From Candidatus Calditenuaceae archaeon (GTDB lineage Archaea; Thermoproteota; Nitrososphaeria_A; Caldarchaeales; Calditenuaceae), in assembly GCA_025058225.1 (NCBI GenBank), contig JANXEE010000014.1:1-59801 (forward strand): a stretch of 59,801 nt of DNA, given 5' to 3'. Under the pieces are notes generated by a model, which was not told the origin of the DNA, searched no databases, and worked only from the letters and a program-made list of their open reading frames with translations. Numbering within the stretch: the stretch's first letter is position 1; each line of letters opens with the position of its first letter. The translations under genes were made by a program, and so were the position numbers. Shown here piece by piece: positions 2,322-40,006 of the stretch.

Positions 2322-3311
2322 TCACGGGGGAAGTCTGATGCCGTGTTCCTTCAAGAATTCGTTGAAGTGAACGACCCGATTCGTTCTCATGGAGAGCAGG
2401 ACCGCGTCGGCGACAGCAACCGAAATCAACCCGTCGATTTGGTTGGGCACGGGCTCGATACCTTCAGCGATGGACTTCACGAACTCCTCCAGCTCTACCC
2501 TCAGTGGTTCCCTCTGCTCCACCATAGGCGAATAGGAGCCGCTGCTCTTCTCGATGACCACCTCCCTCGTGAGGAACTCGAGGCGTATGACGCCCTGTGT
2601 GCCCGTGACGTACATCTCCCTCTTCTTCCTCGGTGTCAGCCAGTTGGATTCCAGCACCGCAGACCTGCCGGAGTTGAAGGTGACCGTGACCTGCACGTGG
2701 TCCTCCTTGGTGTGAATGAGAGACCCCCCGACCGCGTAAATGCTTTCAGGAGGGGAACCGAAGACGCAGTACGCCAGGTCTATGTCGTGAATGGTGGTGT
2801 CGTGGACAACTCCCACGTCCCCTATCCTCTCCGGCCACGGCCCAATCCTCCTTCCGTAAATGAGCAGAGGGTCTCCGATCGCCCCTGCCTCGAGCTCCCT
2901 CATCGCCCTAGCGACCGCGGGGTTGAACCTCTCGATGTGCCCCACCATGACCTTGCACCCTGACGACCTGGAGGCGTCTACAACGTCCAGGGCCTCGCTG
3001 AGGTTTGAGGCCATCGGCTTCTCTATCAGGACGTGCTTCCCGGACGAAAGGAAGTCGATCGTGATTCTGGCGTGGGAGGTCGACGGGGTGCAGACTGTCA
3101 CGGCGTCCAAGTCGTCGTCGTTCACCAGGTCCCTGTAATCGGTCAGGTACCTCTCGACCCTGAACCTCCTCGAGACCTCCTTGGCCCTTGCCAGGTCAAC
3201 GTCACAGATCGCGACCACCTCACAGCCCTGTAACTCCGAGAGCACCCTCACGTGATTCCTCCCCCAGAACCCCGCACCTATGACTGCGACCCTGACAGGT
3301 TCCACGCCCAT
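2322..3311 (-). CDS. Gfo/Idh/MocA family NAD(P)-dependent oxidoreductase
   Basis: Probable sugar or inositol dehydrogenase of 329 residues. The N-terminal Rossmann fold has VAVIGAGFWGRNH, followed by CTPSTSH and the family hallmark EKP (HVLIEKPMA) near residue 95. The C-terminal substrate domain has the usual GHIERFNPAV and HDTTIHDIDLA segments; the latter contains the conserved Asp-x-x-His typical of the family. The ORF track extends 141 residues further upstream, but that extension has no family similarity and overlaps the divergent JAMM gene. ATG at 3311 is preferred because a TATA-like CTTAATAC lies about 25 nt upstream, giving a leaderless start. The 3' end faces the AT-rich spacer. The substrate cannot be told from sequence; UDP-sugar 3-dehydrogenases are close in style. 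Confidence 0.85.
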   Translation of the reverse strand: MGVEPVRVAVIGAGFWGRNHVRVLSELQGCEVVAICDVDLARAKEVSRRFRVERYLTDYRDLVNDDDLDAVTVCTPSTSHARITIDFLSSGKHVLIEKPMASNLSEALDVVDASRSSGCKVMVGHIERFNPAVARAMRELEAGAIGDPLLIYGRRIGPWPERIGDVGVVHDTTIHDIDLAYCVFGSPPESIYAVGGSLIHTKEDHVQVTVTFNSGRSAVLESNWLTPRKKREMYVTGTQGVIRLEFLTREVVIEKSSGSYSPMVEQREPLRVELEEFVKSIAEGIEPVPNQIDGLISVAVADAVLLSMRTNRVVHFNEFLKEHGIRLPP

Positions 3312-3482: not shown

Positions 3483-4097
3483 GTGATACGGGTCTCGGGC
3501 GAGGCCCTGACGAAGGTCCTCAGGCACGCGCTCAGCCACCCGAGGCGAGAGGTAGCTGGGCTCCTGATCGGGAGGGAGAAAAGGGAGGAGCTTCTCGTCA
3601 CGGACGCGGTCACAGGACATCAGAAGGGCTCGGCAGGGCACGTAACCCTTGACGACTCGTTGATGGCCACGCTCTCGGAGCTGCTGGAAGGGCAGAGGTC
3701 TCAGCTCTACGTCGTTGGATGGTATCACACCCACCCAGGCATGGGCGTCTTCCTCTCCGCAGTCGATTACGCCACTCAGCTCAACTACCAGAGGCTTTAT
3801 GACCGCGCGGTGGCTCTGGTGGTTGACCCCTGGGAGTTCGTGAGGTACAACGGGCTGTCCCCCTCATGCTTCAGGTTCTTCAGGATTACAGTGGACAGCG
3901 GACTGGTGGTCGAAGTTCCTTCTCTGGTCGAGGGAGAAGTGAGGGTCCTGTCGCTTCCCAAGCTGCCCGCATCGTCGAGCCCAGAAAGAGACGAGGGCTT
4001 CGTGACCTCTCACGAGTCCCCTGGAGTGGGTTCGAGCAGGGGTTTGCTGTATTATATAAATGAGTTCATCAGTAAGATATCCTGGTGGAGGCAGTGA
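3483..4097 (+). CDS. JAMM/MPN+ metalloprotease, Rpn11-like
   Basis: Predicted zinc metalloisopeptidase of the JAB1/MPN/Mov34 family, 204 residues. The complete JAMM signature is present: Glu23 in REVAGLLIG, then His82-x-His84 and Asp95 in HTHPGMGVFLSAVD. The surrounding GWYHTHPG, followed by RAVALVVDPWEF, resembles eukaryotic Rpn11/CSN5 (GWYHSHPG, VDP) more than the short archaeal SAMP-removing JAMM proteins of about 120-140 residues. The C-terminal third (about 140-204) is extra and unassigned. The start is GTG, placed by a TATA box 33 nt upstream. It overlaps the next gene by 13 nt. By family knowledge it would cleave a ubiquitin-like modifier from a target; no modifier, E2 or RING gene is visible here, so the substrate is unknown. 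Confidence 0.88.
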   Translation: MIRVSGEALTKVLRHALSHPRREVAGLLIGREKREELLVTDAVTGHQKGSAGHVTLDDSLMATLSELLEGQRSQLYVVGWYHTHPGMGVFLSAVDYATQLNYQRLYDRAVALVVDPWEFVRYNGLSPSCFRFFRITVDSGLVVEVPSLVEGEVRVLSLPKLPASSSPERDEGFVTSHESPGVGSSRGLLYYINEFISKISWWRQ

Positions 4098-4939
4098 CGT
4101 TCGATCAGCGCCGCCGGATAATTATCAGGAAAAAGCCCCTCGAGCAACCACAGGATTTGTCGGCACAGACCCAGAGTAACGCGCTCGCTCCGGTCGGTCT
4201 TCAGGAGAGGCAGCTGGCCGATGAGGCCCAGCAGAACGCTCGGGCACTCGAATCGACGCAGCTCGGGTCCGTGAGTCCTGAAGCGGAAGAGCTGATCAGG
4301 AGGGCTGAGGAGGAGTGCAGGAGGGCAAAAGTTCGGTACGATGAGCTCCTCGTTAAGCTGGAAGACCTCCGCACACGCGACAAATCAATCCAGAGGGTCT
4401 TCGTGGAGAAGTACCCCACACCGAACCTGACGGTCGTGAAGAAGAAGCTCAGCGAGCTCGAGGCCGAAAGGAGCAGAATTCTGGCCGGCGTTGGCGAGAT
4501 AGAGGCTTCGATTCAGCAGGCGATCAACGAGCTGGACTCGGTGATCTCAGAGCTCGAGCAGGTCCTCTTCGACAAGTCCGTTGACCTCGAGTATCTCTAT
4601 GAGGCCAGGTCTTCAGGGAAAGGTGACAGTCAGGGACCGGTCGCGGAGTTGGAGGCGGAGTGTAACAGGATACGGGGTGAGATAGCGCGCATCATGTCGT
4701 TGAGGGGCGAACTGACACAGAAGCTCGAGGTCCTCCGGAACCTCCCGAACTCGATCTACAAGTTCACCACCTACGGTGACCTCGCTCCGGAATACCTGAA
4801 GAAGTTGAAGGAGTCTAAACCTCTGGACGAGTCGAAGCTGCAGCACGCGATAACCAGGGTCGTTCAGGACGAACAGGTTCCGAGAGAGTATGCCATCCTC
4901 TACCTTTACAAGAAGCTGATGTCGCAGAAGCCCACGTGA
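4085..4939 (+). CDS. Coiled-coil protein overlapping the JAMM gene (unrecognised)
   Basis: A 284-residue protein I do not recognise. Residues 1-60 are Gln/Ala-rich and probably disordered, with a basic start (RRRIIIRKK). Residues about 75-240 are long heptad-like helices rich in Glu, Arg and Leu (for example EELIRRAEEECRRAKVRYDE), broken by a short Pro-containing stretch near 115 (EKYPTPNL). The last 60 residues form a compact-looking tail ending AILYLYKKLMSQKPT. GTG at 4085 lies inside the JAMM gene, so the two are translationally coupled and may act together. No signal peptide or membrane segment is visible. The architecture is loosely like archaeal adaptor or division coiled-coil proteins, but no named family can be assigned. 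Confidence 0.8.
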   Translation: MEAVTFDQRRRIIIRKKPLEQPQDLSAQTQSNALAPVGLQERQLADEAQQNARALESTQLGSVSPEAEELIRRAEEECRRAKVRYDELLVKLEDLRTRDKSIQRVFVEKYPTPNLTVVKKKLSELEAERSRILAGVGEIEASIQQAINELDSVISELEQVLFDKSVDLEYLYEARSSGKGDSQGPVAELEAECNRIRGEIARIMSLRGELTQKLEVLRNLPNSIYKFTTYGDLAPEYLKKLKESKPLDESKLQHAITRVVQDEQVPREYAILYLYKKLMSQKPT

Positions 4940-4970: not shown

Positions 4971-6104
4971 ATGAACGAGTTCGCCTTCGAGCTCCGCTAC
5001 GACCTCTGGAGGCTCCCCACCTTCGAACCCAACCTGGCGTATCCCGTGCACAGGTGGTTCCACTTCAAGGAGGGGTTCTCGAGGGACCTCGTGGAGTTCG
5101 TGGTCAGGAGGATGGGGCTGCAGGAGGGCCAGGTGGTGCTCGATCCTTTCGTAGGTTCAGGAACTACGCCGTTGACCTGCATGGAGTTGGGCCTCGACGC
5201 GGCAGGCGTTGACGCATCGCCGTTGATGGTCCTGATAAGTTTCGCCAAGACCAGACTCTACGATCCCGAAAGGTTGCTGAAGATAGCGGGCCGTCTCCAG
5301 TCGGTCGCTTTCAGAGCTCAGGACCTCTCCTCCGTCAGCCCACTGGTGAGGAGGGCCTTCACGCCGGAAACACTTCAGCAGCTCCTCTCCCTCAGGGACG
5401 AGGTGATGAAGATCGAAGACCACGACGCGAGGGCCTTCTTCACCCTAGCCTTGATGTCGGCTGTCATGAGGTGCTCCTACGCGATCAAGGACGGATCAGT
5501 CATCAAGATCAGGAAGCGTAAGCTCCCTGAATTCAGAGGGGTCTTCCGGTCAAAGGTGAGGCAGATGATCGAGGACGTGAAAAGGATAGAGCTGCGCTCC
5601 GGCCCGGCGGAGATCTACGCGGGTGACGCGAGAGAGATGAACTTCATCGGCGACGAATCGATCGACGCGGTCATCACGTCCCCACCTTACCTGAACAAGA
5701 TCGAGTACACCAGAGTGTATGAGATCGAGATGGAGCTCTTCGTCGGCGGGTCGAGGCCCAACCTGATGAGGTCCTACATCGGGCTCTCACCGAGGCCGGG
5801 GCGCATCCCCCCCGAGGCCGAGGGGCTACCAGACTCCGCGGTGGCCTACTTCGTAGACTTGGAGCAGTCACTCTCGGAGGTCCTGAGGGTGCTGAGGAGG
5901 GGCGGAAGGGCGGCCTTCGTGGTCTCCGGAGGGGTCTACCCGGGCATCGTCGTTGAGGTGGACTCGGTCCTCGCGAGAATCGCGAAGCGGCTGGGGTTCG
6001 AGGTCGAGCGCGTGATAGCGATGGGCAAGCGGGTCGCCACCTACGAGAGGGTGAAGAGGATCGGTGAGTCGAGGGAGAGCGTCCTGATGCTGAGAAAGGG
6101 CTGA
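4971..6104 (+). CDS. DNA methylase-like SAM-dependent methyltransferase (N6/N4 type)
   Basis: A 377-residue AdoMet methyltransferase. The SAM-binding motif DPFVGSGTTP lies near residue 62 and the catalytic motif ITSPPYLNKIEYTR near 235, followed by a late beta-strand region LRRGGRAAFVVSGG near 310. TSPPY is characteristic of N4-cytosine and some N6-adenine amino-methyltransferases. The order, SAM motif before catalytic motif, differs from beta-class N4 enzymes. There is no restriction endonuclease or specificity subunit nearby, so it would be an orphan DNA methylase; an RNA target cannot be excluded because related folds modify tRNA. ATG at 4971 follows GGAG. It sits 31 nt after the coiled-coil gene and 20 nt before the ATPase subunit gene, so it probably belongs to the same transcript. 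Confidence 0.8.
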   Translation: MNEFAFELRYDLWRLPTFEPNLAYPVHRWFHFKEGFSRDLVEFVVRRMGLQEGQVVLDPFVGSGTTPLTCMELGLDAAGVDASPLMVLISFAKTRLYDPERLLKIAGRLQSVAFRAQDLSSVSPLVRRAFTPETLQQLLSLRDEVMKIEDHDARAFFTLALMSAVMRCSYAIKDGSVIKIRKRKLPEFRGVFRSKVRQMIEDVKRIELRSGPAEIYAGDAREMNFIGDESIDAVITSPPYLNKIEYTRVYEIEMELFVGGSRPNLMRSYIGLSPRPGRIPPEAEGLPDSAVAYFVDLEQSLSEVLRVLRRGGRAAFVVSGGVYPGIVVEVDSVLARIAKRLGFEVERVIAMGKRVATYERVKRIGESRESVLMLRKG

Positions 6105-6124: not shown

Positions 6125-6820
6125 ATGGCCATCGAAGGGAATACGAGGATGTCCGTATCCTTCGGCGGCGGCTATCTGAGGACTAAACTGGAACTGCTCA
6201 GGCTAAGGAGGTCCCTCAGGACCGCGGAGAGGGTCTACAGGATCCTCGAGGACAAGCGTGACGTGCTCGTGAGGAGGATCAACGAGCTCATCGACGAGGC
6301 CCAAGAGCTGAGGGAGGCCCTCAACGCGAAGCTCTCGGAGGCCTATCAGGAGCTGATCACCGCCTACCTGAAGTCCGGGCCCAAGACCATTCAGACCATC
6401 ACCTCGACCCTCCCGGAGACGTTAAAGGTCAAGGTCGGCTCCTACACGATGATGGGGATACAGGTGCCCACGGTCGAGCTCGAGGAGGTTTCGTTCCCGC
6501 TGCCCTACGGGTTCCTGGAGACTTCGGTCCACCTCGACGAGGCGTCCAGGAAGCTGAGGTCCGTGATAGGCGACATTTGCAGGGCCGCAGCCGTCGAGAA
6601 CGCGATCTTCCGGATCGCGGAGGAGCTGAAGCGGACCCAACGGCTCCTCAACGCCCTCGAGTACGTCATCATGCCCAAGTACAGGAACGCCATAAAGGAG
6701 ATCGCGATGTCGCTGGAGGAGTCCGACAGGGACTACTTCGTCAAGCTCAAGCACGTCAAGCGGGTCCTCGAGAGGCGCAAGATCGGAGCAGCTCAGGAGC
6801 GAACCGTTCAGGTCGGATAG
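6125..6820 (+). CDS. atpD: A/V-type ATP synthase subunit D
   Basis: Central-stalk subunit D of the archaeal A1Ao ATPase, a long antiparallel coiled coil that couples the catalytic hexamer to the membrane rotor. The 231-residue product has the family N-terminus (LRTKLELLRLRRSLRTAERVYRILEDKRDVLV), a middle region of short beta-strands near 100-140, and the C-terminal helix with NALEYVIMPKYRNAIKEI, a well-conserved subunit D segment. ATG at 6125 is the track start. ATG at 6149 (MSVSFGGG) is equally possible because a TATA-like TTAACTTTCATAAG lies just before 6125. Other ATPase subunits are not adjacent, unlike most archaea, where D sits in the atp operon. Confidence 0.92.
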   Translation: MAIEGNTRMSVSFGGGYLRTKLELLRLRRSLRTAERVYRILEDKRDVLVRRINELIDEAQELREALNAKLSEAYQELITAYLKSGPKTIQTITSTLPETLKVKVGSYTMMGIQVPTVELEEVSFPLPYGFLETSVHLDEASRKLRSVIGDICRAAAVENAIFRIAEELKRTQRLLNALEYVIMPKYRNAIKEIAMSLEESDRDYFVKLKHVKRVLERRKIGAAQERTVQVG

Positions 6821-6854: not shown

Positions 6855-9137
6855 GTGAAGTCAGCAGAGCTTGTCTCCTGCCTGTTGGCCATGGCCTTTC
6901 TAGTCTCTCTCCTTCCCCCCACCTTCTCCGGCGAGGTGGAGACGGCGAACCCCATGCCGCCGCCGGTGCCGCACAAGTTCAACGCGTTCAAGCTGATCGC
7001 GCCGATGCTCACGGGGAGGTCTCCTCTGATCGCCGAGGGCATAGACCCGGTTACCAGCCTTCCTACCGGCGAGGTCGAGCGGGAGAAGAGGGCCCCCGAG
7101 GACAGGGGACAGCAGGGACCTAGGCTCACGCCGACGCCCGCGCTCCAAGCGCCCGGAGCGGCCGGAGTCCTGATACCCTTCAGGAGCCCGGCGCCGGCGT
7201 TCTCGAGGAACGTCCTCCTGACACGGGACTTCAGCCCCTTCCCGTACCAGACGGAGCCCCACATCGCCGTAAATCCGAGGAACCCCGACCACATCCTGGT
7301 GGGCGTGATAGACTACAACTTCCCAAGCGTCTCGGCCTACGTCTCGATCGACGGCGGTGAGACCTGGGAGGGCCCGAAGCTCGTCAAGTACCTGGGCAAG
7401 GACCTTGCGACCGGGGGAGATCCGGTCGTTGGTTTCGACAGGAACGGCGTGGCCTACTACGTGATGCTCTCGCTGGGGATCGAGGACGTCAGGATAGGTC
7501 CCTTCGTGATCGAAGAGGTGGTGTCCAGCGCGGGCGTCGCCGTCAGCACCGACGGAGGCTTCTCTTGGTCGGAGCCCGTCTCGTCGGCGAGGAGCAGGAT
7601 AACGCTCAGGAACGAGCGCGTCGACGAGCTCGGCAGGCTCAGGGGTCAGCTGGCCTTCGGGTTCATCGACAAGCCCTGGATGGCCGTGGGGCCCGACAGG
7701 GACGACCCGCGGCGGGACGCAGTTTACGTCACGTACACAGAGTTCGCGACGGTCTACGACCTGCTCTACATCGGGGAGCTGGTGTTCCTGGCGAACCCTG
7801 TGCTCGAGACCACGATAAAACTCGTGAAGGGCACCAACGAGGGCAGGACCTGGAGCGCGCCGATCAGCGTCAGCCCGACCGTGATCAGGTGGTTCGGGCC
7901 GGGAGGGCCAAAGAGGGTCCTTCAGGGCTCCAACGTCGCGGTGGCTCCTGACGGAACCGTCTACGTCGCCTACCTCGATACCCTAGACGACGGGGAGATG
8001 GAAGGGTTGGCGGAGATCAAGGTCGTCAGGAGCACCGACGGCGGAAGGACCTGGAGCAGGCCCGTGACGGCCGCGGTCTTCAACGAGATCCCCTTCACGC
8101 CCAGGAACGCCAACTTCAGGTACTGGGGCTCCGCGTTCCCGCAGATGGCCCTCGGCCCCCGGGGCGAGGTATACGTCGTCTTCGTGGGAAGGCCGGGTGA
8201 CAGGCCCCTCGACGACGGAGACGTCTACTTCGTCTCGAGCACCGACGGGGGCGCGACCTGGTCGAGGCCTTTGAGGCTTAACGACGACGACACCAACAGG
8301 CTCCAGTTCTTCCCCGCGATATCCGCGGACCCGAAGGGCGTGATACACGTCATCTGGGGCGACTTCAGGGACGACCCCAGCGAGACCCGTTACCACATCT
8401 ACTACACCAGGAGCGAGGACGGCGGCAGGACCTGGGGCTTCCTGATCAGGGAGATAGGCCAGAGGGTCGTCAACACGAGGGTCACCGACGCCTACTCGAA
8501 CCCCAACTTCTGCTTCCCGAATGGGGCCTTCATAGGCGACTATTTCGCGATCAAGGCGACTGAGAACGACGTCTACGCGGTCTGGGCCGACTGCAGGCTG
8601 GGAGAGTTCCTCGGACTCAACCAGAAGATCGGGTTCGCGCGTGTCAGGCCCATGCGTTCGCCGAGCGTCTTCATAGGGCCTTCAGTCGGCACCAGCGGCC
8701 AGAGCGTCACGATCAGGGGCACCAACTTTCAGCCCGACTCCAACGTCTACATCGAGGTCTCAGGGTCCGTGATCGCGACCACTAAGTCCGGGCCCGACGG
8801 GAGCTTCACGGTCAGGCTCTTCATGCCCGTCACGACCGAGGGCACCCAGACGGTCGTCGTCTACGACCAGACCGGCAACTTCGCATCGGCGTCCTTCTAC
8901 ACTCAGGTCGGAATCGACACGCTCTGGAGGGGCTTCGAACAGATGAGGTCCCTCTCCGGCCAGATCTTCGACTCCATAAAGGCCCTCAACCGGACTTCCT
9001 CGAACCCGGAAGGTGTCACGGCCCCGAGAGGCACCGAGAGCGACTGGCTGATGCCGGTCCTGTTGACGGTGGCAGCCGTCGCGGCGCTCAACACCGCCCT
9101 GCTGGTAGTCCTCTTGGTCAGATCGCGGAGGAGGTGA
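6855..9137 (+). CDS. Secreted Asp-box (BNR repeat) protein with C-terminal membrane anchor
   Basis: Extracellular protein of 760 residues. Residues 1-25 form a signal peptide (LLAMAFLVSLLPPTFSG). At least six Asp-box motifs of sialidase-type propellers follow: SIDGGETW, STDGGFSW, STDGGRTW, STDGGATW, SEDGGRTW and the variant GTNEGRTW. Residues about 610-690 resemble an IPT/TIG-like Ig domain (SVTIRGTNFQPDSNVYIEV). A single C-terminal membrane helix ends LLVVLLVRSRRR. Sialidase catalytic residues cannot be assigned, so this may be a glycan-binding or glycosidase-like propeller rather than an active enzyme. GTG at 6855 fits a TATA-like CTTAATAAC about 27 nt upstream. The ABC importer genes follow within a few nucleotides, which suggests that it processes or captures the imported substrate. 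Confidence 0.82.
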   Translation: MKSAELVSCLLAMAFLVSLLPPTFSGEVETANPMPPPVPHKFNAFKLIAPMLTGRSPLIAEGIDPVTSLPTGEVEREKRAPEDRGQQGPRLTPTPALQAPGAAGVLIPFRSPAPAFSRNVLLTRDFSPFPYQTEPHIAVNPRNPDHILVGVIDYNFPSVSAYVSIDGGETWEGPKLVKYLGKDLATGGDPVVGFDRNGVAYYVMLSLGIEDVRIGPFVIEEVVSSAGVAVSTDGGFSWSEPVSSARSRITLRNERVDELGRLRGQLAFGFIDKPWMAVGPDRDDPRRDAVYVTYTEFATVYDLLYIGELVFLANPVLETTIKLVKGTNEGRTWSAPISVSPTVIRWFGPGGPKRVLQGSNVAVAPDGTVYVAYLDTLDDGEMEGLAEIKVVRSTDGGRTWSRPVTAAVFNEIPFTPRNANFRYWGSAFPQMALGPRGEVYVVFVGRPGDRPLDDGDVYFVSSTDGGATWSRPLRLNDDDTNRLQFFPAISADPKGVIHVIWGDFRDDPSETRYHIYYTRSEDGGRTWGFLIREIGQRVVNTRVTDAYSNPNFCFPNGAFIGDYFAIKATENDVYAVWADCRLGEFLGLNQKIGFARVRPMRSPSVFIGPSVGTSGQSVTIRGTNFQPDSNVYIEVSGSVIATTKSGPDGSFTVRLFMPVTTEGTQTVVVYDQTGNFASASFYTQVGIDTLWRGFEQMRSLSGQIFDSIKALNRTSSNPEGVTAPRGTESDWLMPVLLTVAAVAALNTALLVVLLVRSRRR

Positions 9138-9161
9138 ACGGGCATCAGGTATACCGCCGGC

Positions 9162-11690
9162 GTGCTGGTCGTCGCGATCGTCGCAGTTCTGCTGTTTGCA
9201 CCGATGCCGTCCCTCGCTCAGGAGGTGAAGGGCCCGGCTGTCGATAGGGTGATCTTCAGGGGCCTCGGGTCGCAGGACATCGCGGAGCTCGAGATGAGGG
9301 CCGGCAACATCGACCTCTTCTTCTACAACCTCAAGACTGAAGCTGCGAGGGCCCTCAGGGCAAGGGGGGACATCAGGCTGGTGGAGGTCCCCTCGTCGAC
9401 CGTTGCGATCATCCTCAACCCGGCACCCGCGCCATCGGGCGAGCTTAACCCGTTCTCCATCAAGGAGGTGAGGTACGCGATGCAGTTCCTCGTCGACAGG
9501 GAGACGATCGCCTCCAGGTTCTACGGCGGCATGGCGATCCCGATGTACACGCACGTCTCGCCGATGGACCTCGACCAACTGACGGTCGAGGACGTCATAT
9601 CCAGGCGCGGCATAAGGTACGATCCTGAGTACGCGAGGCAGGTCGTTAGTGACGCGATGAGGAGGGCCGGTGCTGAGCTGAGGGGCGGTATCTGGTACTT
9701 CGGCGGAAAGCCCGTCACGGTCAGGGTCATCATCAGGCCCGAGGACGAGAGGAGGGAGATAGGGTTGGCGTTCGTCGCGGAGCTGAAGAGGCTCGGGTTC
9801 AACGTCGAGGAGATCCTGCTCGAGTTCGGGCTGGCGATTCAGAGAGTTTACTCGACTGATCCGAGGACCTTCGCCTGGCACGCCTACACCGAGGGATGGG
9901 GAAGAGGTGCTGTCGAGCGGTACGACTCTACGGGGATCAACCAGTTCTGCGCTCCGTGGCTGGGCAACATGCCTGGATGGAGGGAGGTGGGCTTCTGGCA
10001 GTACGAGAACCCGCGGCTCGACGAGCTCGGCCAGAGGATCTTCAAGGGGGAGTTCAGGGACTTCAACGACCGGAACGAGCTCTACCGGAGCGCGACCGAC
10101 CTCTGCCTCGACGAGTCCATACGGGTCTGGGTCGTCACCGTGATGAACTCCTATCCCGTGGCACCGGCCGTGAGGAACCTCATCACGGACCTCGTGGCGG
10201 GCGTCAGGTCCGTCTTCAGCCTCAGGGAGGCCTCCATCGAGGGAAGGAACGTCATCAGAGTCGGGCACCTCTGGGTCGACACGGAGAGGACCACGTGGAA
10301 TCCTGTGGGTGGGTTCGGGGACGTCTACAGCGTCGACATCTGGAGGTATCTGGTAGATTCGCCGCTGGTCCGTGATCCCGTCTCGGGGAGGACGGTCCCG
10401 TTCAGGTCCGAGTTCAGGGTCGAGACTGCAGGTCCCGCAGGAACGCTCACCGTGCCTCCGGACGCCTTCACCTGGAACGCCGATGCCGGTGCGTGGAGGC
10501 GGGTCGTGCCCGGAACCACAGCGAGGAGCAAGGTCACGTTCGACATGTCCAAGTACATAGGAACCAGGTGGCACCACGGCCAGCCCATCACGTGGGCAGA
10601 TGTCCTCTATTCCATTTACCAAGGCTTTGATATGTCATACAACTCAAACAAGAATAGAATAGAGACAGCGATCGCGGTTACCAGCAGGCCTTTCCTCGAG
10701 ACCGTGAAGGGCATACGGATAGTTGGTGACAGGTACCTGGAGGTATACGTCGATTACTGGAACTTCGAGACCGACAAGATCGCTGAGTATGCGGCGATCG
10801 GGTTTCCGTCGATGCCGTGGGAGTTATACGCTGCGATGGACGAGCTAGTCTTCAACAGGAGGAGGGCTGCCTACAGCGACACGGCAGCCTTCCGCTTCAA
10901 CGTGATCTGGCTCAACCTCGTCAAGGAGGTTCACGGCAGACTGCTGGTGGACGTCCTGAGGTCCTTCACGGAGAGGCGCTTCGTACCGGAGACCGTCTTC
11001 ACGCTCGACGGGCGGAGTCTCGTCTCTCCAGCGGAGGCCCTGAGCAGGTATGAGGCCGCGATCTCGTGGTTCAACTCGAGGAGGCACCTCGTGATCAGCA
11101 ACGGCCCCTTCTACCTCGACAGGTTCGACGGAGCTGCTCAGACAGCCGAGATAGCCGCGTTCAGGGACGCGACCTATCCGTTCTCGAAGGGCAGTCTGAT
11201 GGGGTTCGCGAAGGAGGCCAGGTTACCGACGGCCTCTCCGGAGGGGAGGCTGGAGGTGGTCATCGGCAGCGACTCCACTCTGACCTTCAGGGCCACCGGT
11301 GACCCGGGGACGAAGGCCAGCGTCAGGGTTTACGAGGGTGGTACCGGCAGGGTCGTCTTCAGGTCGGCCGATGTGCCGGTGGAGGGCGGAAGGATAAGGG
11401 TCACGCTGCCGACGGCCATCACGTCACAGCTGAGGAGAGGCCTCTTGGTCGTCGACGTAAGTCTCTACAACCCCGAAAACCTAGGCGTCATCAGGACGTT
11501 CCGGTTCACGACGGAGGCCCTTCCGGCCGGTGCGCCACCGACGCAGGTCACCCAGACTCCGGGAACCGTGACTGCCCCACAGCAGCCCCAGCAGCTTCCG
11601 CTGACCACCGTCGCGATCGGAGTCGTAGCGGCAATCGTTGCGGTAACGGCCGTCCTCTTGGTGATGCTGAGGAGAAGAAAGGGTAGCTGA
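9162..11690 (+). CDS. ABC transporter substrate-binding protein, family 5 (peptide/sugar type)
   Basis: Membrane-anchored solute-binding protein of about 842 residues, long for the family. It begins with a hydrophobic signal segment (LVVAIVAVLLFAPMPSLAQE). Family 5 features include the segment NPFSIKEVRYAMQFLVDRETIA near 90 and a second lobe where KVTFDMSKYIG precedes WHHGQPITWADVLYSIY (about 460). The C-terminus has a beta-sandwich-like stretch, a Pro/Gln/Thr linker (APPTQVTQTPGTVTAPQQPQ) and a membrane helix ending RRRKGS. GTG at 9162 leaves no basic residue before the hydrophobic core. An in-frame ATC at 9144 would give IRYTAGVLVVA and is preceded by GGAGGTGA, so the true start may be that rare codon. 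The permease gene overlaps its stop by 1 nt. Confidence 0.85.
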   Translation: MLVVAIVAVLLFAPMPSLAQEVKGPAVDRVIFRGLGSQDIAELEMRAGNIDLFFYNLKTEAARALRARGDIRLVEVPSSTVAIILNPAPAPSGELNPFSIKEVRYAMQFLVDRETIASRFYGGMAIPMYTHVSPMDLDQLTVEDVISRRGIRYDPEYARQVVSDAMRRAGAELRGGIWYFGGKPVTVRVIIRPEDERREIGLAFVAELKRLGFNVEEILLEFGLAIQRVYSTDPRTFAWHAYTEGWGRGAVERYDSTGINQFCAPWLGNMPGWREVGFWQYENPRLDELGQRIFKGEFRDFNDRNELYRSATDLCLDESIRVWVVTVMNSYPVAPAVRNLITDLVAGVRSVFSLREASIEGRNVIRVGHLWVDTERTTWNPVGGFGDVYSVDIWRYLVDSPLVRDPVSGRTVPFRSEFRVETAGPAGTLTVPPDAFTWNADAGAWRRVVPGTTARSKVTFDMSKYIGTRWHHGQPITWADVLYSIYQGFDMSYNSNKNRIETAIAVTSRPFLETVKGIRIVGDRYLEVYVDYWNFETDKIAEYAAIGFPSMPWELYAAMDELVFNRRRAAYSDTAAFRFNVIWLNLVKEVHGRLLVDVLRSFTERRFVPETVFTLDGRSLVSPAEALSRYEAAISWFNSRRHLVISNGPFYLDRFDGAAQTAEIAAFRDATYPFSKGSLMGFAKEARLPTASPEGRLEVVIGSDSTLTFRATGDPGTKASVRVYEGGTGRVVFRSADVPVEGGRIRVTLPTAITSQLRRGLLVVDVSLYNPENLGVIRTFRFTTEALPAGAPPTQVTQTPGTVTAPQQPQQLPLTTVAIGVVAAIVAVTAVLLVMLRRRKGS

Positions 11691-12730
11691 TGTTCAGAAG
11701 GCTGCTCTCCCGTGCCCTGACCCTGACGGCTGTCCTCATTACGGTCCTCACGCTCCTCACGGTAGTCCTAGGGGCTACGGGTTACTCCGACAGGATCATC
11801 CAGTCCCTCATCGGCGAGCAGCTCAGGTCGATGCGCGAGAGTCTGGCCCAGAGGATCAGGGACCCTGAGGAGCTGGAGAGGGCCCTCTCCGGTCTCAAGT
11901 CGGAGATGGAAAGGGCCTACGGGCTCGACAGGCCGTGGTACACGAGGATCCCCGAGACGGTCCTCAGGGTTCTGACGCTGGACCTGGGCGACTCCAGGAC
12001 TGCCAGGAGCACCTCCGGCAGCACGAAGGTCATCGACGTCCTCTCCGAGAGGATCCCGAACACCGTTGTCCTCGTAACGACGGCGATGCTGATCTCCTCC
12101 CTGCTGGGCCTCTACATCGGCGCGACGCTCTCAAAGCGCGTCGGGACACGACTCGAGAGGTCCGTCACGTACCTCTCCGCGGTCTCCAACAGCTTACCGA
12201 GCTGGTGGACAGGCATACTGCTGCTGATCGTCTTCGCGTATCAGCTCAGATTGTTCCCGGGCTCGGGCATGTTCAGCAGTCCACCTCCCGAGGGGGCGCT
12301 GGAGAGGGCCGTCGACGTCCTCTGGCACTCGGTGCTACCCGTGACGACGCTCGTCCTGATATCGATAGGGCCTTCGATCTACGCCAGCAGGACCCTCTTG
12401 CTTAACGTCGCACAGGAGGACTTCGTCTCGGTCGCGAGGTCCAAGGGCCTCCCGGAGAGGGTCGTCTCGCTCAGGTACGTCCTCAGGCCCGCCTCACCTC
12501 CGATTGTGACCGGCCTGGCGCTGTCGCTGCCGGCGTCGCTCGGTGGAGCGATACTCACGGAGACCGTCTTCAACTGGCCAGGGATGGGAAGGCTCTACTA
12601 CAACGCGGTCATCATGGGCGACGAGGTGCTGATCGTCGCGCTCACCTACCTCTTCACGCTGATGTACGTCGCCGCGAGGTTCATCCTCGAGGTCCTCTAT
12701 CACCTGCTGGATCCACGGGTGAGGGTCTAG
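11690..12730 (+). CDS. ABC transporter permease, DppB/OppB-like
   Basis: Integral membrane permease of 346 residues for a peptide/opine/sugar-type importer. The N-terminal helix (residues 8-30) is followed by an extracytoplasmic segment of about 100 residues, as in DppB. A membrane core of about five helices follows, with the cytoplasmic EAA-like loop DFVSVARSKGLPERVVSLRY near 245, which contacts the ATPase. ATG overlaps the stop of the binding-protein gene by 1 nt (TGATG), so translation is probably coupled. The second permease starts immediately after its stop codon. The transporter ATPases that normally follow are missing from the window. Confidence 0.9.
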   Translation: MFRRLLSRALTLTAVLITVLTLLTVVLGATGYSDRIIQSLIGEQLRSMRESLAQRIRDPEELERALSGLKSEMERAYGLDRPWYTRIPETVLRVLTLDLGDSRTARSTSGSTKVIDVLSERIPNTVVLVTTAMLISSLLGLYIGATLSKRVGTRLERSVTYLSAVSNSLPSWWTGILLLIVFAYQLRLFPGSGMFSSPPPEGALERAVDVLWHSVLPVTTLVLISIGPSIYASRTLLLNVAQEDFVSVARSKGLPERVVSLRYVLRPASPPIVTGLALSLPASLGGAILTETVFNWPGMGRLYYNAVIMGDEVLIVALTYLFTLMYVAARFILEVLYHLLDPRVRV

Positions 12731-38818: not shown

Positions 38819-40006
38819 TCAGTACCTGGGAATGCTCGGGTCGATCCTCTCCGAGTACGCGTCTATTCCGCCTGCGAGGTTGAAGGCACGGGAGATGCCG
38901 ATGTCCCTCAGCAGCTTGACCGCGAGAGAGCTCCTCTGTCCCGTATGACAGTAGACCACCAGCTTCTTGGTCTGGTCGATCTCGTGGAGCCTGGACGTGA
39001 GCTGTCCGAGCGGGATGAGCTTCGCGCCCGGTATGCGGCATATCTCCCACTCCACGGGTTCCCTCACGTCGATCAGCTCCACTCTCTCACCCCGTTCGAC
39101 CATCTCCCTGAACTGCTCGGGTGTGATGCTGAAGCTCGCGCCCAGTTCCTCCCCCGTGACCCTGACGCCGCAGAAGGCCTCGTAGTCGATCAGCTCCCTG
39201 ATGGTCGGGTTGTCGCCGCAGACGGGGCAGTTCCTGTCCCTCTGGAACGACAGCTCCCTGAAGTTCATCGAGAGCGCGTCGACCAGCATGAGCTTCCCTA
39301 TCAGCGGCCTCCCGACCCCGAGGATCAGCTTGATCGCCTCGTTGGCCTGCAGAGACCCTATGATGCCCGGCAGCACTCCCAGAACACCCCCCTCCGCACA
39401 GGACGGCACCAGACCCGGCGGTGGAGGCTCTGGATAGAGGCACCTGTAGCAGGGTCCCTTCCCCGCGTAGAACACGGAGACCTGACCGTCGAACCTGAAG
39501 ATGCTCCCGTAGACCAGGGGCTTTCCCAAGAAGACGCATGCGTCGTTGAGGAGGTATCTGGTGGGGAAGTTGTCGGTGGCGTCTATCACGACGTCGTAAT
39601 CCCTAATGATGTTCAGCGCGTTCGAAGAGTCGATGGGTGAGTTGTAGGTCTCTACCTCGACGTAAGGGTTGAGCCTCCTCAGCCTCTCCTTCGCGACCTC
39701 AACCTTGGGTCTGTCGACGTCCTCGGTGGTGAAGATCACCTGGCGCTGGAGGTTGGTCTCGTCGATGTCGTCGAAGTCCACGATGCCGATTCTCCCCACA
39801 CCGGCGGCCGTGAGGTAGAGGGAGATGGGGGAACCCAATCCACCGGCCCCCACCACCAGCACCCTCGCTGCTTTGAGGCGCTTCTGACCCTTCATACCGA
39901 CCTCCGGCATGATGAGGTGCCTGCCGTACCGCCTGATCTCCGGAAGGCTCAGAGCCACTTCCTCCCAGCCCCTCACAACGGGCTCCAGACCTGTTAGCTC
40001 GACCAC
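38819..40006 (-). CDS. E1-like adenylyltransferase with C-terminal rhodanese (MoeZ/Uba4-like)
   Basis: Activates the C-terminus of a ubiquitin-fold sulfur carrier or modifier (MoaD/ThiS/SAMP/Urm1 type) and transfers sulfur to it. Residues 1-270 form the MoeB/ThiF domain: nucleotide loop VVGAGGLGSPISLYLTAAGVG near 50, DATDNFPTRYLLND near 142, zinc cysteines CYRCLYP and CPVCGDN, and the active-site Cys in PSCAEGGVLGVLPG. Residues about 285-395 form a rhodanese domain with active loop CHTGQRSS. This is the Uba4/MOCS3 arrangement. The GTG start fits a TATA-like ATTAAATACG about 30 nt upstream. No small ubiquitin-fold protein is encoded nearby, so its partner is unknown. Confidence 0.93.
   Translation of the reverse strand: MVELTGLEPVVRGWEEVALSLPEIRRYGRHLIMPEVGMKGQKRLKAARVLVVGAGGLGSPISLYLTAAGVGRIGIVDFDDIDETNLQRQVIFTTEDVDRPKVEVAKERLRRLNPYVEVETYNSPIDSSNALNIIRDYDVVIDATDNFPTRYLLNDACVFLGKPLVYGSIFRFDGQVSVFYAGKGPCYRCLYPEPPPPGLVPSCAEGGVLGVLPGIIGSLQANEAIKLILGVGRPLIGKLMLVDALSMNFRELSFQRDRNCPVCGDNPTIRELIDYEAFCGVRVTGEELGASFSITPEQFREMVERGERVELIDVREPVEWEICRIPGAKLIPLGQLTSRLHEIDQTKKLVVYCHTGQRSSLAVKLLRDIGISRAFNLAGGIDAYSERIDPSIPRY

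Follow-up and report, generated by a model that had tools for sequence, protein, structure and literature searches.

An archaeal rpn11 gene overlaps a gene of a Caldarchaeales-specific coiled-coil family, a candidate partner of the deubiquitinase

The ubiquitin system of C. subterraneum serves as a reference for the possible origin of eukaryotic ubiquitination, and work on its Rpn11 has treated the enzyme as soluble and acting alone. The window examined here is a stretch of 59,801 nucleotides, namely contig C8 of a Calditenuaceae MAG (Caldarchaeales, 'Aigarchaeota') that spans 1.17 Mb and is 73% complete. It carries an rpn11-type gene overlapped by a gene for a coiled-coil protein, with the following features.

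3483-4097, forward strand: gene for a 204-aa rpn11-type JAMM deubiquitinase, started by GTG; CsRpn11 ortholog
3549-3551, forward strand: catalytic Glu23 codon, invariant in the ortholog alignment
3726-3767, forward strand: metal-binding motif H82-x-H84-x10-D95 (HTHPGMGVFLSAVD), invariant in the ortholog alignment
4038-4091, forward strand: C-terminal helix predicted at JAMM residues 186-203, which may serve for tethering or docking; from the tails of 42 orthologs compared with background proteins
4094-4939, forward strand: gene for a coiled-coil protein (281 aa if started at 4094, 284 aa if at 4085) of an undescribed family specific to Caldarchaeales
4094-4097, forward strand: GTGA, the JAMM stop overlapping the likelier coiled-coil start; other Calditenuaceae have the 4-nt ATGA geometry
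4109-4135, forward strand: conserved basic-hydrophobic N-terminal motif RRRIIIRKK (consensus PKRIIIK), from the family alignment
4865-4915, forward strand: C-terminal QDEQVPREYAILYLYKK, best conserved part of the family; Y269 and A270 invariant, Q261, P266 and R267 near-invariant

A methylase gene (4971-6104) and the gene for A-ATPase subunit D (6125-6820) follow downstream, as the first-pass annotation had reported; these neighbors are local to the genus of the window, g1.

The ORF at 3483-4097 matches Pfam JAB (E=1.5e-18). A full JAMM site at Glu23, His82, His84 and Asp95 had been read from the sequence, in an Rpn11/CSN5-like context with GWYHTHPG and VDP motifs. Both motifs are present, and the four residues are intact at those positions and invariant in an alignment of 16 orthologs. 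The protein therefore has the complete site of archaeal Rpn11-type JAMMs, Glu + HxHx10D within the GWYHxHPG context. A PDB search returned C. subterraneum Rpn11 as the top match (6fjv, E=1.2e-35), followed by yeast Rpn11 (1e-18) and then CSN5 (1e-15). JAMM-1 desampylases (HvJAMM1, PfJAMM1) have the JAMM fold in common with the window protein, but its score with the NCBIfam desampylase model is far below the cut-off (24.6 vs 130 bits). The gene is under purifying selection (dN/dS 0.14 against the Calditenuaceae relative L003), and the JAMM protein of one Calditenuaceae locus is 78% identical. An AlphaFold model of the JAMM protein, made from two sequences, had a pLDDT of 34.8 and was left out of the analysis.

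JAMM matches were found in 44/44 Caldarchaeales genomes and an Rpn11 ortholog in 43/44; the second JAMM of G012 (57% complete) is its only one. Sequences from archaea, bacteria and yeast were placed in one tree, in which the Caldarchaeales Rpn11s, including those of the window and C. subterraneum, all fall to one side of a branch (95/90). The window JAMM thus sides with CsRpn11, apart from the other JAMMs of archaea and bacteria. With more Asgard rows in the tree, two Asgard sequences fall among the Caldarchaeales Rpn11s; the second JAMM of g1 and a bacterial JAMM remain outside. In this tree Asgard Rpn11-like JAMMs are the nearest relatives beyond Caldarchaeales. By these sequence comparisons the window protein is an ortholog of the characterised deubiquitinase CsRpn11, and cleavage of ubiquitin conjugates would follow from its family membership.

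The JAMM of G003, which we take to be the C. subterraneum genome, agrees with the PDB sequence of CsRpn11 across the printed alignments. CsRpn11 (CSUB_C1473; PDB 6FJU/6FJV/6FNN/6FNO) and the window protein come from the same order and have the JAMM core and catalytic residues in common. In both genomes a gene of the coiled-coil family lies directly downstream. The window Rpn11 differs in that it is 38% identical, has an aromatic C-terminal helix and lacks the H4 motif R.K.LEST, which is conserved in Rpn11 orthologs outside g1.

A genome lacking a ubiquitin system was considered and rejected. Ubiquitin, E2 and E1 genes occur in that order on contig C18 of the window's own genome (C18:6643-8532), and C31 encodes a RING protein for which four membrane helices are predicted (L194:2469-3305, reverse strand). 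In contrast to C. subterraneum, rpn11 is no longer beside Ub-E2-E1 in g1; in G010, of the same genus, the two are ~69 kb apart on one contig. Adjacency is not essential, as they are also separated in G006/G007. The genome search for a ubiquitin-like modifier with a C-terminal Gly-Gly, proposed at first pass, yielded the ubiquitin on C18, which ends ...TVGG and differs from that of C. subterraneum in having no pro-peptide. Because the g1 ubiquitin already ends in Gly-Gly, processing of pro-ubiquitin should be unnecessary, which would leave Rpn11 with deconjugation only. RING proteins of the C31 kind, having a C-terminal RING and four predicted membrane helices, recur across Caldarchaeales (also L070:12380-13132, forward strand), and this type is likely to be a membrane E3. 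The 73%-complete assembly yielded no small RING, but a second RING match exists in both G010 and G011.

A second ubiquitin-like system is found in g1 on contig C28 (L069; 10237-11058, with 9741-10232 and 11678-12520, all on the reverse strand). One ORF there has a ubiquitin-like domain ending PRPVGG fused directly to E2 (UQ_con E=1.2e-7, ubiquitin 3.7e-4). This fusion, conserved in G010 and G011, adjoins a second JAMM and a short E1, and its sequence looks like that of a Ub-E2 precursor cut at Gly-Gly. The window itself holds a second E1/ThiF-like gene, probably of MoeB/ThiF type, at 39440-39886 on the reverse strand; over 148 aa its product is 39% identical to Calditenuaceae E1.

The longest form of the coiled-coil ORF spans 4085-4939 on the forward strand. 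An overlap of 13 nt with rpn11 had been described for it; the overlap is real, but that length assumes the GTG at 4085, and the GTG at 4094 gives a 4-nt GTGA. In relatives of the same family the two genes overlap by 4 nt (ATGA), and GTGA at 4094-4097 would give the window the same geometry, so the second start is the likelier. A dN/dS of 0.105 against L003, together with conservation across the order, indicates that the ORF is a real gene. The window protein has the elements that define the family, namely a PKRIIIK-type N-terminal motif, a coiled coil and a C-terminal IPREYA motif, the last within the family stretch QxExIPREYA. Hydrophobic heptad periodicity (3.5 residues) was significant, being as high in 0/2000 shuffles, for the two longer-studied helices and was weaker in the first helix (p=0.03). 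The predicted structure, built on two sequences (window and L003; pLDDT 74.5), has disordered residues 1-60, three long helices and a helical C-terminus. The N-terminal motifs of the family weakly resemble those of small RING proteins.

Known identities for the coiled-coil protein were sought and rejected. No Pfam family scored above cut-off, which bears out its earlier description as unrecognised; the best matches were sub-threshold coils that differed between members. A known fold was discarded as well, since neither PDB nor viral structures matched at E<=0.001. PADLOC matched SMC-like coils only, and an anti-phage component was likewise dismissed.

Coiled-coil homologs were detected in 41/44 Caldarchaeales genomes, including 29/29 good ones. 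Across the remaining Thermoproteota, a 31-member profile gave a full-length match in 0/354 genomes and one partial coil match (E=2e-7), and 0/119 Asgard genomes had a family match at E<=1e-5. The search across TACK and Asgard genomes, another step proposed at first pass, thus shows a family restricted to Caldarchaeales. Asgard Rpn11-like JAMMs differ in this respect, and some have a coiled coil inside the JAMM protein itself. In the literature, PMC6043591 never uses the word 'coiled' and PMC5654768 uses it only for Rad50; the genome paper of Nunoura 2011 could list the downstream gene. Judged by these sequence searches, the family is undescribed, present throughout Caldarchaeales and so far found there only.

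Linkage of the two genes was scored by HMM in draft genomes, with the coiled-coil gene starting between -2 and +50 nt relative to the stop codon of the JAMM gene. The coiled-coil gene lies on the same strand within 50 nt 3' of rpn11 in 27/41 genomes and 10/14 genera, comprising every genome of families f1, f2 and f3 with both genes plus genus g13 of f4. Conservation of the pair had been singled out for checking, and its absence from all relatives would have spoken against it; the pair is instead widespread. In C. subterraneum the coiled-coil gene is 31 nt behind CsRpn11, next to the ubiquitin operon. The contrast drawn in the first-pass annotation, between this locus and archaeal ubiquitin operons, consequently fails: the coiled-coil gene belongs to the ancestral ubiquitin locus, and the window's genome has Ub-E2-E1 (C18) and a RING (C31). 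Linkage is not obligatory, because in the f4 genera g10, g11, g12 and g14 the coiled-coil gene is apart from rpn11 and both genes persist. The f4 cases that were traced show a ~10 kb inversion with a breakpoint between the two genes; rpn11 has remained beside ubiquitin in them.

These observations suggest a two-gene, translationally coupled operon in which the coiled-coil protein is an accessory adaptor or tether of the Rpn11 deubiquitinase and not a catalytic activator, a reading that we hold to be somewhat better than an even bet. Rpn11 would act as a zinc JAMM isopeptidase that removes ubiquitin from conjugated proteins. The coiled-coil protein would be elongated and helical, with a disordered N-terminus bearing a short basic motif, an antiparallel coiled coil and a conserved helical C-terminus; by binding Rpn11 it could place the enzyme on targets or at the membrane. 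On its own in solution CsRpn11 is reported to be an active monomer (PMC6043591), so a partner should position Rpn11 and not switch it on. The CsRpn11 helices H4 and H5 are reportedly dispensable for activity, and residues 174-202 are unresolved (PMC6043591). Candidate contact surfaces are H4 (R.K.LEST, outside g1) and the C-terminal helix, which would be free for a partner or the membrane. On sequence grounds the coiled-coil protein is a good candidate for the missing partner of Rpn11.

The main rival is that inherited synteny could partly lie behind conservation of the pair. The coiled-coil protein would then be a passenger with an unrelated housekeeping job, left beside rpn11 through slow shuffling of an ancestral block of mevalonate-type genes, coiled coil, rpn11 and Ub-E2-E1. 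The coiled-coil gene keeps thiolase/HMG-CoA-synthase-like neighbors both in C. subterraneum and in f4 genera without linked rpn11, and its family is universal in the order, linked or not. The junctions speak against a passenger. In g1 and g7 (G006/G007) Ub-E2-E1 has moved elsewhere, yet the rpn11-coiled-coil pair is intact, with the genes overlapping or nearly so, and in g1 the other flank of the pair has changed too. The link from rpn11 to the coiled-coil gene was probably lost a single time, and that from ubiquitin to rpn11 two or more times, a pattern that supports coupling short of proving it. The stop-start overlaps point in addition to translational coupling. We consider the passenger explanation rather unlikely.

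A change of role within g1 is improbable, though parts of the record fit it. Under this explanation the Rpn11-coiled-coil pair was re-purposed, and deubiquitination is shared with, or has passed to, the second JAMM beside the C28 fusion. The g1 Rpn11 has diverged unusually far, with 35-41% identity to the 13 aligned orthologs of other genera, and has lost the H4 motif, while g1 ubiquitin and E2 are still 72-76% identical to those of other Calditenuaceae; within Caldarchaeales the second JAMM system turned up in g1 alone. Against it, all catalytic residues of Rpn11 are intact and the canonical Ub-E2-E1 is still present.

Eukaryotic Rpn11, CSN5 and BRCC36 act in complexes, and the Rpn11-Rpn8 and CSN5-CSN6 heterodimers pair an MPN+ catalytic subunit with an MPN- one; the window encodes a similar MPN+ catalytic domain and has a candidate dedicated partner gene in a conserved pair. 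An analogy with such obligate MPN partners had been proposed, but a JAMM that depends for its activity on bound coiled-coil protein, in the Rpn8/KIAA0157 sense, is highly improbable, as isolated CsRpn11 cleaves pro-ubiquitin and conjugates (PMC6043591, PMC5654768), and neither the coiled-coil protein of the window nor 30 relatives have a Pfam JAB match that would mark an MPN domain, the model of the coiled-coil protein being all-helical. Because the MPN domain is missing and CsRpn11 works alone, an adaptor or tether is favored over an obligate partner.

The C-terminal tails of Rpn11 were also compared, with membrane calls made from Kyte-Doolittle hydropathy and hydrophobic-moment scores only. 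In Asgard Rpn11-like JAMMs a single strongly hydrophobic helix ends <=15 residues from the C-terminus in 26/33 proteins (L198, L206-L230). Family f3 of Caldarchaeales resembles them, its Rpn11 tail being a membrane helix with a mean hydropathy of 3.0 (for example L082 of G020, 8845-9645, reverse strand, and L028 of G021). Caldarchaeales Rpn11 tails do not align with each other; 69% of them contain a cationic amphipathic stretch, compared with 16% of 159 other same-locus proteins, a clear trend across the order. The window Rpn11 has no membrane helix, and its C-terminal helix has a hydrophobic moment of 0.56 (shuffle p 0.055) and a net charge of +1. Membrane tethering of Rpn11 is thus well suggested by sequence in Asgard and plausible across Caldarchaeales; the window protein, whose tail is weakly supportive, may be tethered. 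An incomplete literature search found no paper describing such Asgard tails.

A broader proposal, which we put forward tentatively and with belief short of even, is that archaeal Rpn11 is membrane-tethered and not a primordial soluble enzyme. It would be tail-anchored in most Asgard proteins examined and in one Caldarchaeales family, and held by a cationic amphipathic C-terminal helix elsewhere; in Caldarchaeales it would work with its coiled-coil partner opposite the four-helix membrane RING. Its ancestral job would then have been at the membrane, before the proteasome lid. If archaeal Rpn11 is tethered as the Asgard tails suggest, the view of what the enzyme did before there was a lid would change. 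If the coiled-coil family is the partner of Rpn11, an overlooked component of the C. subterraneum ubiquitin system has been found.

Two further arrangements around JAMM genes were seen. A Gfo/Idh/MocA oxidoreductase gene lies beside an Rpn11-like JAMM gene both in the window (2322-3311, reverse strand) and in a Helarchaeote (L005:5017-5952, forward strand); the orientation differs and the likeness may be chance. In G067, another member of the Thermoproteota, the genes for E2 and ubiquitin neighbor one for a JAMM that has large additional domains and a membrane helix (L169:2293-4757, reverse strand).
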